From Bradyrhizobium sp. CCGUVB1N3 (lineage in GTDB: Bacteria > Pseudomonadota > Alphaproteobacteria > Rhizobiales > Xanthobacteraceae), in assembly GCF_024199925.1 (NCBI RefSeq), contig NZ_JANADR010000001.1:6017501-6081500 (forward strand): a DNA stretch of 64,000 nt, read 5' to 3'. This document shows positions 5,131 through 63,713 of this stretch, in pieces; position 1 is the stretch's first letter; each line of letters starts with the position of its first letter. Below the pieces are notes generated by a model that made no database searches, was not told the origin of the DNA, and was given only the letters and a program-made list of their open reading frames with translations. The position numbers were made by a program, and so were the translations under genes.

Positions 5131-5933
5131 CGCACCGCCTCCCGCGCCGCTCCGTTGCTGCGGCCGCGCGCGACGTCGAGAAACACCTCTTCCAACGTGG
5201 CGCGGTTGTAGCGGGCCATGATGGCGTCGGGCGTGTCGTCATCCTCGATGCGGCCGCGCTTCATGATGATGACGCGGTCGCAGAGACGCTCGACCTCGAG
5301 CATGTTGTGCGAGGCGAGCAGGATGGTGGCGTTATGGGCCTTGCGGTAGGCCTCGAGATGCGCCCGCACCCAGTCGGCCGTGTCGGGGTCGAGCGAGGCC
5401 GTCGGCTCGTCCAGCAGCAGCAGCTCGGGCTGGTTGATCAGCGCCTTCGCAAGCGCAACGCGGGTCTTCTGCCCGGCCGAGAGCTTGCCGTTGGCCCGGT
5501 CGATGAATTCGTTGAGATCGAGATCGTCGGCAAGCTGCGCGATGCGACCGGACAGATCCTTCACCGCATAGAGCTTGCCGAAAATCGTCAGATTCTGCCG
5601 CACCGTGAGCCGCATCGGCATGTCGACATAGGGGCTTTCGAAATTCATCCGCCCGAGCACATCGGCGCTCTCTTCCGGCATCCGATGCCCGAGCACCCGC
5701 ACGCGGCCGGAGGTCGGCAGCACGAGACCCATGATCATCGCGATCGTCGTGGTCTTGCCGGCGCCGTTGCCGCCGAGCAGACCCGTGATGCTGCCGCGCG
5801 GAAGCGAAAAAGAAATGTCGTCGACCGCGCGGGTCTGCTTGTAGAACTTGACGAGATGGTCGACCTCGATCGCCGCGGACAGTGTGCTGTCCGCGACAGT
5901 CAGCCGACTTGAAGCCTTGTCATTCTCGGTCAT
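5127..5933 (-). CDS. ABC transporter ATP-binding protein
   Basis: Nucleotide-binding subunit of the ABC-2 exporter encoded with the permease downstream. All motifs are present: Walker A GGNGAGKTT, signature LSAGQKTRVALAKAL, Walker B LLLLDEPTASLDP and the switch histidine in LLASHNM. I start at MTENDKASSRL (268 aa); the frame is open upstream to 6419 but that stretch reads antisense to regS and is not protein-like. The gene is transcribed divergently from regS across about 100 bp, so the two promoters must lie close together there. Confidence 0.9.
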   Translation of the reverse strand: MTENDKASSRLTVADSTLSAAIEVDHLVKFYKQTRAVDDISFSLPRGSITGLLGGNGAGKTTTIAMIMGLVLPTSGRVRVLGHRMPEESADVLGRMNFESPYVDMPMRLTVRQNLTIFGKLYAVKDLSGRIAQLADDLDLNEFIDRANGKLSAGQKTRVALAKALINQPELLLLDEPTASLDPDTADWVRAHLEAYRKAHNATILLASHNMLEVERLCDRVIIMKRGRIEDDDTPDAIMARYNRATLEEVFLDVARGRSNGAAREAVR

Positions 5934-55866: not shown

Positions 55867-55994
55867 CCCTCTCCCGCTTGCGGGAGAGGGTTGGGGTGAG
55901 GGTGCCTCCGCAATGAACGCTCTTTGAGTGGAGAGAACCCTCACCCGCATTGCATCTCACGATGCAATGCGACCTCTCCCGCAGGCGGGAGAGG
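55867..55994. repeat. Paired hairpin repeat (CCCTCTCCCGC/GCGGGAGAGGG family)
   Basis: An outer hairpin at 55867-55890 (CCCTCTCCCGC-TT-GCGGGAGAGGG) is followed by GGTTGGGGTGAGGG. Then come CCCTCACCC, a perfect internal hairpin GCATTGCATC-TCAC-GATGCAATGC (55947-55970), and a second outer hairpin at 55973-55994. Overall it is a nested inverted pair, of the same design as the DNA flanking the DUF559 gene. Confidence 0.87.
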
Positions 55995-60759: not shown

Positions 60760-61878
60760 ATGAAGGTTACGGTCGAACGCGCGCAACTCCTGAAATCGCT
60801 GGGCCACGTCCATCGCGTGGTCGAGCGCCGCAACACGATCCCGATCCTCGGTAACGTGCTGGTGCGTGCAGAAGGCGCAAAACTGTCGCTGAAGGCGACC
60901 GACCTCGATCTCGAGGTGACGGAGACGCTGCCTGCGGAAACCGCGACCGCCGGTTCCACGACCGTGCCGGCGCACATGTTCTACGACATCGTGCGCAAAC
61001 TGCCCGACGGCTCGCAGATCGTGCTGGAAGGCGACGGCGACCGCTCCGTGCTGGCGATCCGTGCCGGCCGCTCGCGCTTCACGCTCCAGACGCTGCCGGA
61101 GAATGATTTTCCCGATCTTGCGGCCGGCGACATGTCGCATTCCTTCAACCTCGCCGCCAAGGACGTGAAGCGGCTGATCGACCGCACCCAGTTCGCGATC
61201 TCGACCGAGGAGACGCGCTACTATCTCAACGGCATCTATCTGCATGCCGCAGGCTCAGCCAAAGCCGCGACCTTGCGCGGCGTTGCCACCGACGGCCACC
61301 GCCTCGCCCAGCTCGATCTGGTGCAGCCCACCGGTGCCGCCGGCATGCCCGGCGTGATCGTACCGCGCAAGACCGTCGGCGAGGTGCAGCGCCTGATCGA
61401 GGACAGCGAGGCCGAAGTCACGATCGAGCTGTCGCAGGCCAAGATCCGCTTCACCATCGGCAATGTGGTGCTGACGTCAAAGCTGATCGACGGCACTTTC
61501 CCCGACTACGGCCGCGTCATCCCGCAGAACAACGACAAGGAACTGGTCGTCGACAAGAAGGATTTCGAGGCCGCTGTCGACCGTGTCTCCACCATCTCCA
61601 GCGAGCGCGGCCGCGCGGTGAAGCTCTCGCTCTCCGCGGGCAAGCTGGTGCTATCGGTCACCAATCCGGATTCCGGCAGCGCGACCGAAGAGCTCGAGGT
61701 CGAATACGCCTCCGACGCGCTCGACATCGGCTTCAACTCCCGCTACCTGCTCGACATCGCCGCCCAGATCGAGGGCGAGGTCGCAACCCTTAAGCTCGCC
61801 GACCCGGGTTCACCGACCCTCGTCCAGGACCGCGACGACAAGAGCGCGCTATACGTGCTGATGCCGATGCGGGTGTGA
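60760..61878 (+). CDS. dnaN: DNA polymerase III beta subunit (sliding clamp)
   Basis: Ring-shaped clamp that tethers polymerases to DNA; 372 aa in three repeated domains. MKVTVERAQLLKSLGHVHRVVERRNTIPIL opens it, with FTLQTLPENDFPDL and DGTFPDYGRVIP from the first and later domains, and the C-terminal YVLMPMRV clamp end is intact. ATG 60760 is chosen; 26 upstream codons are non-homologous. It lies 253 bp after dnaA, in a stretch with no recognisable gene. The next feature is the repeat-flanked DUF559 gene. Confidence 0.97.
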   Translation: MKVTVERAQLLKSLGHVHRVVERRNTIPILGNVLVRAEGAKLSLKATDLDLEVTETLPAETATAGSTTVPAHMFYDIVRKLPDGSQIVLEGDGDRSVLAIRAGRSRFTLQTLPENDFPDLAAGDMSHSFNLAAKDVKRLIDRTQFAISTEETRYYLNGIYLHAAGSAKAATLRGVATDGHRLAQLDLVQPTGAAGMPGVIVPRKTVGEVQRLIEDSEAEVTIELSQAKIRFTIGNVVLTSKLIDGTFPDYGRVIPQNNDKELVVDKKDFEAAVDRVSTISSERGRAVKLSLSAGKLVLSVTNPDSGSATEELEVEYASDALDIGFNSRYLLDIAAQIEGEVATLKLADPGSPTLVQDRDDKSALYVLMPMRV

Positions 61879-61954: not shown

Positions 61955-62058
61955 GCCCTCTCCCCTTGTGGGAGAGGGCAGCTCCGCTCGTCGACCCAAG
62001 CTCACTCGGGTGAGGGGTCCTCTCTCCGCACCTACAATGCGAAGGCAACCCCTCACCC
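61955..62058. repeat. Hairpin repeat left of the DUF559 gene
   Basis: Hairpin arms GCCCTCTCCC and GGGAGAGGGC with loop CTTGT (61955-61979). This is followed by GGGTGAGGGGT (62008-62018) and its complement ACCCCTCACCC (62048-62058). The 23-bp hairpin core is the exact reverse complement of the one at 62525-62547 on the other side of the gene. Confidence 0.9.
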
Positions 62059-62120
62059 GGCTTCGCTTCGCGAAGGCACACCGCCGCCGCTTCACGAACA
62101 GAGTGCGATGTGAGGGGCTT

Positions 62121-62486
62121 GTGCCGCAAGACCCGCATCATCGACCGGCCGCCACGCATCTGCGTGAATTCGCGAAGAAGATGCGACGAGAGCCGACGGA
62201 TGCCGAAGCTGCGATGTGGCGATTGCTCAGGGATCGCCGGCTCTCCACTGTCAAGTTTCGCCGACAAGTCCCCTTCAAGAACTACATTCTCGATTTCGTC
62301 TGCTTCGAGAAGCGGCTCGTCATCGAAATCGACGGTAGTCAGCACGCAGAATCGCGTAGCGATGCTACTCGGGAAGCCGCACTTGCTGCCGAAGGATTTC
62401 AAATCGCCCGCTACTGGAACAACGATGTCTTGCAACAGCCCGCGGCCGTATTGGAGGACATCCTTGCCAAGCTCAGTACGCGGTAA
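62121..62486 (+). CDS. DUF559 (PD-(D/E)XK/Vsr-like) endonuclease-domain protein
   Basis: 121-aa single-domain protein of the DUF559 family, related to Vsr and PD-(D/E)XK nucleases. Blocks: LREFAKKMRREPTDAEAAMW, FRRQVPFKNYILDFVCF (catalytic-type Asp), RLVIEIDGSQH (E-x-D) and the C-terminal RYWNNDVLQQP. A GTG at 62121 gives the usual family length, and GAGGGG just before it can act as ribosome site. The longer frame from 61875 only translates repeat DNA. GTGAGGGG (62110-62117) and CCCCTCAC (62491-62498) lie within 4-5 bp of the two ends. It interrupts the dnaN-recF pair. Nuclease activity and target are not known. Confidence 0.87.
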   Translation: MPQDPHHRPAATHLREFAKKMRREPTDAEAAMWRLLRDRRLSTVKFRRQVPFKNYILDFVCFEKRLVIEIDGSQHAESRSDATREAALAAEGFQIARYWNNDVLQQPAAVLEDILAKLSTR

Positions 62487-62489
62487 GAT

Positions 62490-62548
62490 ACCCCTCACCC
62501 GTCGCCTCACTTCGTGAGGCGCCACCCTCTCCCACAAGGGGAGAGGGT
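62490..62548. repeat. Hairpin repeat right of the DUF559 gene
   Basis: ACCCCTCACCC starts 4 bp after the DUF559 stop. It is followed by the small hairpin CGCCTCAC-TTC-GTGAGGCG and the hairpin ACCCTCTCCC/GGGAGAGGGT with loop ACAAG (62524-62548). In reverse complement it has the same order of blocks as the left flank. Confidence 0.9.
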
Positions 62549-62576: not shown

Positions 62577-63713
62577 ATGACCCCTTCCCGCATTCATCGC
62601 CTGACGCTGACGCAGTTTCGCAATTACCGGGCGGCGGGGCTCGAGACGACGGCTGACATGGTGGCGCTGGTCGGCCCCAATGGTGCGGGCAAGACCAATT
62701 GCATCGAGGCCATCTCGTTTCTGTCGCCGGGCCGCGGCTTGCGACGGGCGACGCTGGAGGACGTCGCCGACAATCAGGGCGACGGATCCTGGGCGGTCTC
62801 CGCGCAGGTCGAGGGCGCGCTGGGCCTCGGCACGCTCGGCACCGGCATCGATGCGCCGCGCGCCGACAGCGCGGTGAGCCGGCGCTGCCGCATCGACCGC
62901 GAGCCGGTCAACTCGGCGAGCGCCTTCGGCGACCACATCCGCATGGTGTGGCTGACGCCGGCGATGGACGGCCTGTTCATGGGCGCGGCCTCGGAGCGGC
63001 GGCGCTTCTTCGACCGCCTGGTGCTGGCGATTGACAGCGAGCATTCCAGCCGCATCTCGGCGCTCGAGCGTTCGCTGCGCTCGCGCAACCGGCTGCTCGA
63101 GGTGCGCAATTATGACGACCATTGGTGCGACGCCATCGAGCGCGAAACCGCCGAGCTTGCGGTCGCGGTCGCAGCGACGCGCGGCCAGACCGCTGCAAAG
63201 CTCACCGCGATGCTCAATGGCCGCGCGCAATCCTCGGCGTTCCCGTCGGCGCAAATCGCGCTCGACGGCTGGATGGAGAACGCGTTGCTTGCAGAGACCG
63301 CGACTTCGGTCGAGGACCGCTACCGCCAGATCCTACGCGACAACCGCCCGCGCGATGCGATCGCCGGCCGCACCACCGACGGGCCGCACCTCACCGATCT
63401 CCAAGTCGTCTATGCGCCGAAGGGGATGCCGGCGCGCGATGCCTCGACCGGCGAGCAGAAGGCGCTGCTGATCGGGCTCGTGCTGGCGCATGCGACGCTG
63501 GTTGCCGAGATGACCGGCATCGTGCCGCTCTTGCTGCTCGACGAGGTCGTCGCGCATCTCGATCCGCACCGCCGTGCGGCGCTGTTTGCCGAACTGCAGA
63601 AACTCGGTGCGCAGGTGTGGTTAACCGGCGCCGACCCTGCCGCTTTTGCCGAGATCGGCAGCTCCGGCGAGGTGTTCGACGTCGAGAACGGGCGCATCAC
63701 GGCGCGCCGGTAG
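62577..63713 (+). CDS. recF: DNA replication and repair protein RecF
   Basis: SMC-like ATPase that loads RecA at gaps with RecO and RecR; 378 aa. Blocks: LTLTQFRNYRAAGLE, Walker A ALVGPNGAGKTNCIEAI, the arm-helix region RRFFDRLVLAIDSEHSSRI, signature ARDASTGEQKALLIGLVLAH and Walker B LLLLDEVVAHLDPHRRAALF. ATG 62577 begins right after the right-flank repeat of the DUF559 cassette, so the repeat sits in the recF leader. gyrB is the usual next gene in relatives, but the window ends before it. Confidence 0.96.
   Translation: MTPSRIHRLTLTQFRNYRAAGLETTADMVALVGPNGAGKTNCIEAISFLSPGRGLRRATLEDVADNQGDGSWAVSAQVEGALGLGTLGTGIDAPRADSAVSRRCRIDREPVNSASAFGDHIRMVWLTPAMDGLFMGAASERRRFFDRLVLAIDSEHSSRISALERSLRSRNRLLEVRNYDDHWCDAIERETAELAVAVAATRGQTAAKLTAMLNGRAQSSAFPSAQIALDGWMENALLAETATSVEDRYRQILRDNRPRDAIAGRTTDGPHLTDLQVVYAPKGMPARDASTGEQKALLIGLVLAHATLVAEMTGIVPLLLLDEVVAHLDPHRRAALFAELQKLGAQVWLTGADPAAFAEIGSSGEVFDVENGRITARR

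Follow-up and report, generated by a model that had tools for sequence, protein, structure and literature searches.

A small gene of the DUF559 family lies between dnaN and recF in Bradyrhizobium sp. CCGUVB1N3, framed by inverted palindromes, and this locus raises the question whether gene and palindromes belong together and, if so, what the encoded protein might do for the repeats. In the window (the whole stretch of 64,000 nucleotides analyzed here), the left neighbor is dnaN (60760..61878, plus strand), whose product is the three-domain beta subunit of DNA polymerase III (Pfam DNA_pol3_beta domains 1-3), and the right neighbor is recF (62577..63713, plus strand; RecF/RecN/SMC N-terminal domain, RecF/SMC_N-type in Pfam), which was matched in 60 of the 60 genomes of the genus. 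The intervening gene (62121..62486, plus strand, GTG start) encodes a nuclease-like protein of 121 amino acids, and both its family and its position between dnaN and recF, claimed in the preliminary description from the letters alone, are borne out by Pfam (PF04480, E 4.3e-38). The same holds for the outermost elements, the two 23-bp palindrome cores, CCCTCTCCC-CTTGT-GGGAGAGGG at 61956..61978 (plus strand) and its counterpart at 62525..62547 (minus strand), which are reverse complements without a mismatch, loops included.

Between the cores and the gene, the two sides differ. On the right, the core is preceded by a middle hairpin (62503..62521, seen when the region is folded as single-stranded DNA) and by an inward-facing tail (62490..62501, minus strand; ACCCCTCACCCG as read on the plus strand), and the whole side folds as single-stranded DNA into two clean hairpins (z -5.4). 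The left side folds less well (z -3.5) and consists of more than one repeat: an intact inward tail at 62007..62018 (plus strand; GGGTGAGGGGT, with the purine tail CGGGTGAGGGGT), complementary to 62490-62501 at 12 of 12 positions, is followed by an extra opposing half element and a second tail remnant, GTGAGGGG (together 62048..62117; the remnant at 62110-62117). This extra stretch of about 90 bp between the intact tail and the gene is missing from orthologous junctions (e.g., those of genomes G005 and G057), so that the term "minimal" cassette used earlier does not describe the left side of the window. The boxes GTGAGGGG (62110-62117) and CCCCTCAC (62491-62498) are exact reverse complements of each other and lie where they had been placed; the distances to the coding region, previously given as 4-5 bp, are 3 nt upstream of the start codon and 4 nt downstream of the stop codon. 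The left repeat plausibly also supplies the ribosome site of the DUF559 gene (GAGGGG, 3 nt, GTG), judging from the letters. A further CCCTCTCCC/GGGAGAGGG hairpin is present at 55867-55890 of the window, not close to any of the genome's five DUF559 matches.

The Pfam model of DUF559 (PF04480) matches the window protein with 130 bits against a cut-off of 20.6, and the matches at E up to 0.001 comprise DUF559 and the sub-threshold MTES_1575, and nothing else. Pfam finds no GIY-YIG domain in this protein, which therefore falls outside the Ssn type, and no HUH Y1 transposase domain (E up to 0.001). An alignment of 47 sequences contains 17 invariant columns, among them D58, E69, D71 and H75. A Foldseek search of the PDB started from the AlphaFold2 model (mean pLDDT 87) identifies as the best match 3hrl, the endonuclease-like protein NGO0050 from Neisseria gonorrhoeae, which the DUF559 profile likewise finds (E 2.4e-34). 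The second match is 3r3p, the homing endonuclease I-Bth0305I (E 7.3e-5), which also shows a weak sequence match (E 9.4e-4); 1vsr follows at rank 11 with a weak E of 0.025, after mitoribosome and PvuRts1I chains. A Vsr mismatch endonuclease proper is rejected (TIGR00632, 15.4 bits against a cut-off of 97.85), and so is an anti-phage defense nuclease, given that PADLOC returned just two weak matches, confined to portions of large proteins (E 0.0058 and 0.01).

The layout in the window recurs at other DUF559 genes. In the flank test, the 350 bp on the upstream side of a gene were aligned with the downstream 350 bp in reverse complement, and a score of at least 15 was counted as positive; the top score against letter-shuffled upstream flanks was 14. 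Within the genus, 67 of the 74 DUF559 loci that were scored have inverted flanks by this test; the 74 are the top-ranking matches of the underlying search, and one further locus was skipped. Locus L011 was dropped for a flank below 100 bp and L175 for short or N-bearing flanks. Many of the 74 loci are mutually orthologous, as they sit in 14 site clusters; clustering of all 75 genus loci also yields 14, of which 12 contain a positive locus. Outside the genus, 66 of 80 named loci pass and 14 fail, in a biased sample comprising the best 80 of at least 581 confirmed relatives from one scan of a genome collection. Judged by record title, the positive loci include members of the Alpha-, Beta-, Gamma- and Deltaproteobacteria, Chloroflexi, Planctomycetota, Nitrospirae, Methylomirabilota and Doudnabacteria; loci from Spirochaetes and Omnitrophota score 14.0 each, slightly below the threshold, and a few of the passes deviate, e.g., that of Legionella anisa (L203, score 123), with long A+T-rich inverted flanks unlike the others. 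Among 29 loci scored from a Pfam search of 299 phylum genomes, 16 are positive and 13 fail. Thus, the pairing of DUF559 genes with palindromes extends far past Bradyrhizobium into many distantly related bacteria.

The controls bear on the alternative that GC-rich intergenic hairpins terminate transcription and adjoin the gene incidentally. Such palindromes have a presumed role in termination in Enterobacter sp. 638, for which 100 are given in PMC2869309. None of 30 PIN-domain genes of the same genus tested positive, nor did any of 242 pseudo-genes shifted by about 1 kb from DUF559 in the named loci (these lie in near-duplicate pairs, which leaves about 121 independent ones), and of 886 overlapping tiles across 464 kb of the genome that holds the window 7 were positive, with none reaching 20. 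Flanking palindromes are therefore far commoner at DUF559 genes than elsewhere, in agreement with the earlier expectation. Tails face inward on both sides at 68 of 74 genus loci and 49 of 80 named loci, compared with 0 of 30 and 0 of 73 in controls; this two-sided symmetry is at odds with incidental terminators, as is the statement in PMC4666352 that an earlier study saw no promoter or terminator activity. Chance or terminator flanking is accordingly rejected on the controls (PIN genes, shifted pseudo-genes and tiles) and retains next to no probability. The median flank score is 35 for own pairs and 18 for mismatched pairs from different DUF559 loci; the flanks of different DUF559 genes thus resemble one another, so that cognate specificity rests mainly on the pheS-pheT junction described below, together with a weak Mantel correlation between protein and flank similarity (r 0.36, 13 of 2000 permutations as high, 12 independent sites).

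The Bradyrhizobium genome itself contains five DUF559 matches, four of which, inspected by eye, have inverted hairpin flanks, each of a different hairpin family. By score, three of the five pass, with the flanked locus L002 reaching 13.5, below the threshold; in the remaining locus, L005, DUF559 is part of a 402-aa open frame without flanking hairpins. The 23-bp core of the window is dispersed over the genome in 41 copies at up to one mismatch, 23 of them exact (reversed control pattern, 0). Thirty of the 41 were viewed, two of which belong to the window cassette. Among the 28 outside it, 26 (24 distinct doublets) have an inverted partner core, allowing up to 5 substitutions, at a distance of 36-182 bp, which leaves no room for a gene, and an opposing tail is present at 27. 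The order within such a doublet is that of the cassette minus the gene: core, middle hairpin, GGGTGAGGGG tail, short spacer and then the same elements reversed.

The excess of gene-less copies lends itself to a different explanation, the main rival to a common unit, namely that a mobile DUF559 gene inserts between the halves of pre-existing doublets that have spread by other means. Insertion of a gene into a doublet's spacer would yield exactly the layout seen, an insertion sequence sitting in REPs provides a precedent (PMC8450116), and 41 core copies stand against 5 DUF559 genes in this genome. Such a landing pad accounts poorly for the four flanked genes of the genome, each (by eye) with a different hairpin family, and two further observations given below also tell against it; we consider it unlikely.

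Junctions were also compared across strains. By eye, the dnaN-recF junctions of 50 genomes of the genus sort as follows. A DUF559 gene occupies 20 of them, in either intact or decayed form, and one more retains a DUF559 remnant. In 11, CGTC-type hairpins enclose a small GIY-YIG gene (again intact or decayed), and one has this cassette with an internal deletion. Another 11 show hairpin doublets without a gene, belonging to two further kinds; five contain other remnants, and one is masked. The preliminary description took the gene to be inserted at this junction: the site is indeed variable across strains (DUF559 in 20 of 50), but none of the 50 genomes offers a pristine empty site there; empty sites were found at two other junctions. 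At locus L055 (dnaN-recF of genome G002), a deleted GIY-YIG cassette retains both hairpin ends, which fits the birth of a doublet by deletion.

The first of these other junctions lies between pheS and pheT (identified with Pfam). Among 30 genomes, it carries DUF559 of lineage C in seven and of lineage E in 10, and it is empty in seven, where the two genes overlap by 4 bp (GTGA) with nothing inserted; of the remainder, two are truncated by contig ends, three carry other reading frames and one a remnant. In all 17 complete cassettes (7 C and 10 E; checked by script), the gene lineage matches the hairpin type. This joint change of gene lineage and hairpin family speaks against genes landing in pre-existing doublets. 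No clean target-site duplication could be read at pheS-pheT because GTGA/ATGA is confounded with the stop and start codons. In three genomes (G016, G008 and G044; loci L402, L411 and L424), three unrelated small frames replace the 4-bp GTGA overlap, which makes pheS-pheT look like a hot spot for insertions in general.

On a recF + pheT tree of 26 genomes, the state of the pheS-pheT site changes 13 times, with a minimum of three; the labels exclude G014 and G039 (contig ends), G030 (remnant) and G044 (other frame), and G024 has no PheT locus. Shuffled labels on the same tree change 13.4 times on average, and 497 of 1000 shuffles give the observed number or fewer. With a tree signal no better than shuffled, ordinary recombination may suffice to carry the alleles from strain to strain, and an old passenger cassette whose patchwork reflects homologous recombination alone, the protein being inactive in it, would produce this very scatter. 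Allele exchange of this kind leaves unexplained at least 12 flanked sites in one genus, the gene-less copies and the recurrence across phyla, and as the sole explanation it is highly improbable.

The second junction with empty sites lies downstream of a thiolase gene, where 30 loci from 60 genomes comprise four with the core doublet, one with a related hairpin pair, 12 with an unrelated GTAGGGTGGG-type doublet and 13 that are empty. In the 12 loci with the unrelated family (L437-L439, L442, L445, L446, L449, L453, L455, L456, L458 and L459), a GTAGGGTGGG...CCCACCCTAC doublet replaces the core doublet inside the same flanks, and doublets of this family are also found at dnaN-recF in three genomes.

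A repeat matching the DUF559-flanking palindrome has been described without reference to DUF559. In its compact form, CCCTCTCCC-loop-GGGAGAGGG-NNN-GGGTGAGGGG, which occurs beside DUF559 in other bacteria, it is the PIT/TM motif, an intrastrand triplex motif defined by a pyrimidine arm, a purine arm and a mirror-image purine third strand, with short loops. Holder et al. 2015 (PMC4666352) describe this motif from more than 260 genomes and give 23 copies and five inverted pairs for E. coli K-12. The main text of that paper reports neither a consensus of flanking genes nor a mobility gene, and the words "nuclease" and "DUF" are absent from it. In Bradyrhizobium, compared with PIT/TM, the second loop holds an additional hairpin and is correspondingly larger, which makes triplex formation in the window uncertain. 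A putative G-quadruplex reading of the G-rich tail was set aside, given that the published triplex reading fits better.

In E. coli K-12, the gene ycjD (5408-5761 in locus L425) encodes a DUF559 protein according to Pfam, and copy 9 of PIT/TM (1,351,204-1,351,239) lies between fabI and ycjD (coordinates of PMC4666352). There is also a decayed hairpin, overlapping the ycjD end, and the upstream side has no partner; in ycjD, as in the DUF559 gene of genome G390, repeats are present downstream only. The chance expectation around ycjD is 0.018 copies, a post hoc figure for 23 copies spread uniformly over an assumed 12% of intergenic DNA. The gene was found in 3365 of 5426 E. coli genomes; among three matches examined from E. 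coli without ycjD, there was no clean empty site, two having a TetR/RND efflux operon adjoining fabI and the third being a repeat copy elsewhere.

In the set of 299 genomes, 28 of 108 with DUF559 and 7 of 191 without it contain the strict compact pattern (Fisher p 2e-8, phylogeny ignored; reversed control pattern, 1 match), the positive set including weak matches with E up to 8.8e-4. The rarity of the repeats in genomes without DUF559 is the second of the observations that speak against pre-existing doublets spread otherwise. The strict pattern is absent from 80 of the 108 positive genomes; one of the seven negative genomes with the pattern has 46 copies, and a search with YcjD of these seven revealed no DUF559. 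Family f34 has four genomes in which DUF559 matches strongly, and these hold 101, 98, 35 and 10 copies; its seven others hold 8, 1 and, in five cases, 0. In G173 and G390, from other families, 19 sites were viewed: 9 have a second hairpin at a distance of 31-72 bp, and the others appear to be single.

For the DUF559 protein, the median dN/dS is 0.10 (43 usable pairs of 120, from 16 intact dnaN-recF orthologues), a value that speaks for intact copies, given that open-frame orthologues alone were included, with decayed copies excluded, and the median dS of 1.06 is near saturation. Purifying selection thus acts on intact DUF559 copies. A relative detectable by tblastn is present in 44 of 72,556 plasmid records, and mainly plasmid-borne spread is rejected. 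Both the selection and the rarity on plasmids would suit a host service, in which a housekeeping nuclease trims or resolves hairpin or triplex repeats, or modulates DNA uptake, and its adjacency to the palindromes reflects selected co-inheritance and not mobility; a Vsr-like protein with a DUF559 domain in Caulobacter is described as causing an SOS response in cells without the cytosine methylase (PMC12907096). The patchy and swapping occupancy, the decayed copies and the presence of ycjD in only 3365 of 5426 E. coli genomes are more like a mobile or selfish unit, and a pure host service seems rather improbable.

Taken together, DUF559 genes and their palindromes are linked and behave as a unit. 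The reading that we consider probable, with some reservation, treats the gene and the flanking palindromes as a single unit, selfish or semi-domesticated, in which a small Vsr/homing-endonuclease-like nuclease is paired with a cognate palindrome family of its own. It rests on the inverted pair with tails directed towards the gene, from the gene-less doublets with the same ends and polarity, from genes and hairpins replacing each other together, from the coexistence of occupied and empty sites and from purifying selection. The suggestion of the preliminary description that this may be a nuclease-plus-palindrome cassette is upheld in part, namely in the linkage, the unit behavior and the fit of the comparison with RAYT/REP; recognition, cleavage and mobilization of the palindromes by the DUF559 protein are what we infer from this behavior. 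In such a mechanism, the nuclease would recognize one of three states of the palindrome (single strand, extruded hairpin, or triplex folded behind the replication fork) and would cut or nick at the palindrome's edge. Repair of the break might then copy the doublet or the entire cassette into another break or, alternatively, convert an occupied or empty allele. Gene-less doublets would consequently spread like MITEs, with the gene riding along.

With the hairpin also dispersed gene-less in the same genome and the pairing recurring in distantly related bacteria, DUF559 proteins are good candidates for the partner, hitherto missing, by which a long-known bacterial repeat is spread or maintained. 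Among the papers listed by full-text searches, with preprints and most subscription journals lying outside their range, none was seen to link DUF559 to these repeats. The PIT/TM repeats are abundant non-B-DNA elements of more than 260 genomes that have spread without a mobility gene known from the text of PMC4666352; a linked conserved nuclease makes the question of their spread testable in E. coli K-12, which has one such gene, ycjD, and 23 mapped repeats. If the proposed unit is real, the uncharacterized DUF559 family gains a candidate substrate, and the RAYT/REP way of life has evolved again with an unrelated enzyme.

GIY-YIG nucleases offer one point of comparison. In Neisseria, Ssn/NTS, attributed to Chenal et al., is reportedly such a nuclease and modulates DNA uptake. 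In the Bradyrhizobium data, the gene at dnaN-recF of G026 has a GIY-YIG domain (Pfam), and small GIY-YIG genes were recorded at dnaN-recF (L039, L041, L046-L048, L054, L057 and L064) and at loci L109-L125 and L166-L185. These genes lie between inverted palindromes of many families, and 28 of 49 scored loci pass the flank test. The GIY-YIG match in Pfam ends at 76-77 in all 28 passes and at 73-74 in 20 of 21 failures, a difference which suggests a second subfamily. The GIY-YIG units resemble the DUF559 unit in that a stand-alone nuclease is flanked by inverted palindromes, here CGTC repeats, and they occupy the same dnaN-recF site in other genomes; they differ in the GIY-YIG fold and in the palindromes. 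The CGTC-tagged repeats have no associated transposase genes according to the text of PMC3733652.

I-Bth0305I (3r3p) shares with the window protein the fold and a weak sequence match; the DUF559 element, unlike it, is flanked by palindromes, with no intron or intein apparent, and what was observed at pheS-pheT is an exchange of site states, as distinct from directional homing. The closest parallel in organization is RAYT/REP-REPIN, where likewise a small nuclease gene lies between palindromes that are dispersed in the same genome, part of the dispersed copies being gene-less inverted doublets (26 of 28 viewed in the Bradyrhizobium genome). Several repeat families per genome, with repeat-specific genes, are also described for RAYT/REP (PMC3733652). 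The earlier analogy with RAYT/REP thus fits, on the inverted flanking pair, the gene-less doublets with the same ends and the joint swapping of gene and hairpins at pheS-pheT. RAYT (TnpA-REP) is a Y1/HUH tyrosine transposase, whereas DUF559 (PF04480) has a Vsr/I-Bth0305I-like fold, and, by eye, the DUF559 repeats, unlike REPs, are seemingly not GTAG-tagged; with the HUH transposase absent, the DUF559 unit is not a member of the RAYT/REP system, and the DUF559 protein, though unrelated, would do for its palindromes what RAYT does for REPs. On balance, we lean slightly towards a broader view, in which the PIT/TM repeats, in several other phyla as well as from E. coli to Bradyrhizobium, have their missing partner in DUF559 nucleases. 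Together with RAYT/REP and GIY-YIG/CGTC, these nucleases would then exemplify a general rule: stand-alone small nucleases of unrelated folds each own and propagate one palindrome family, and the resulting units are rivals for shared intergenic sites (dnaN-recF, for example).
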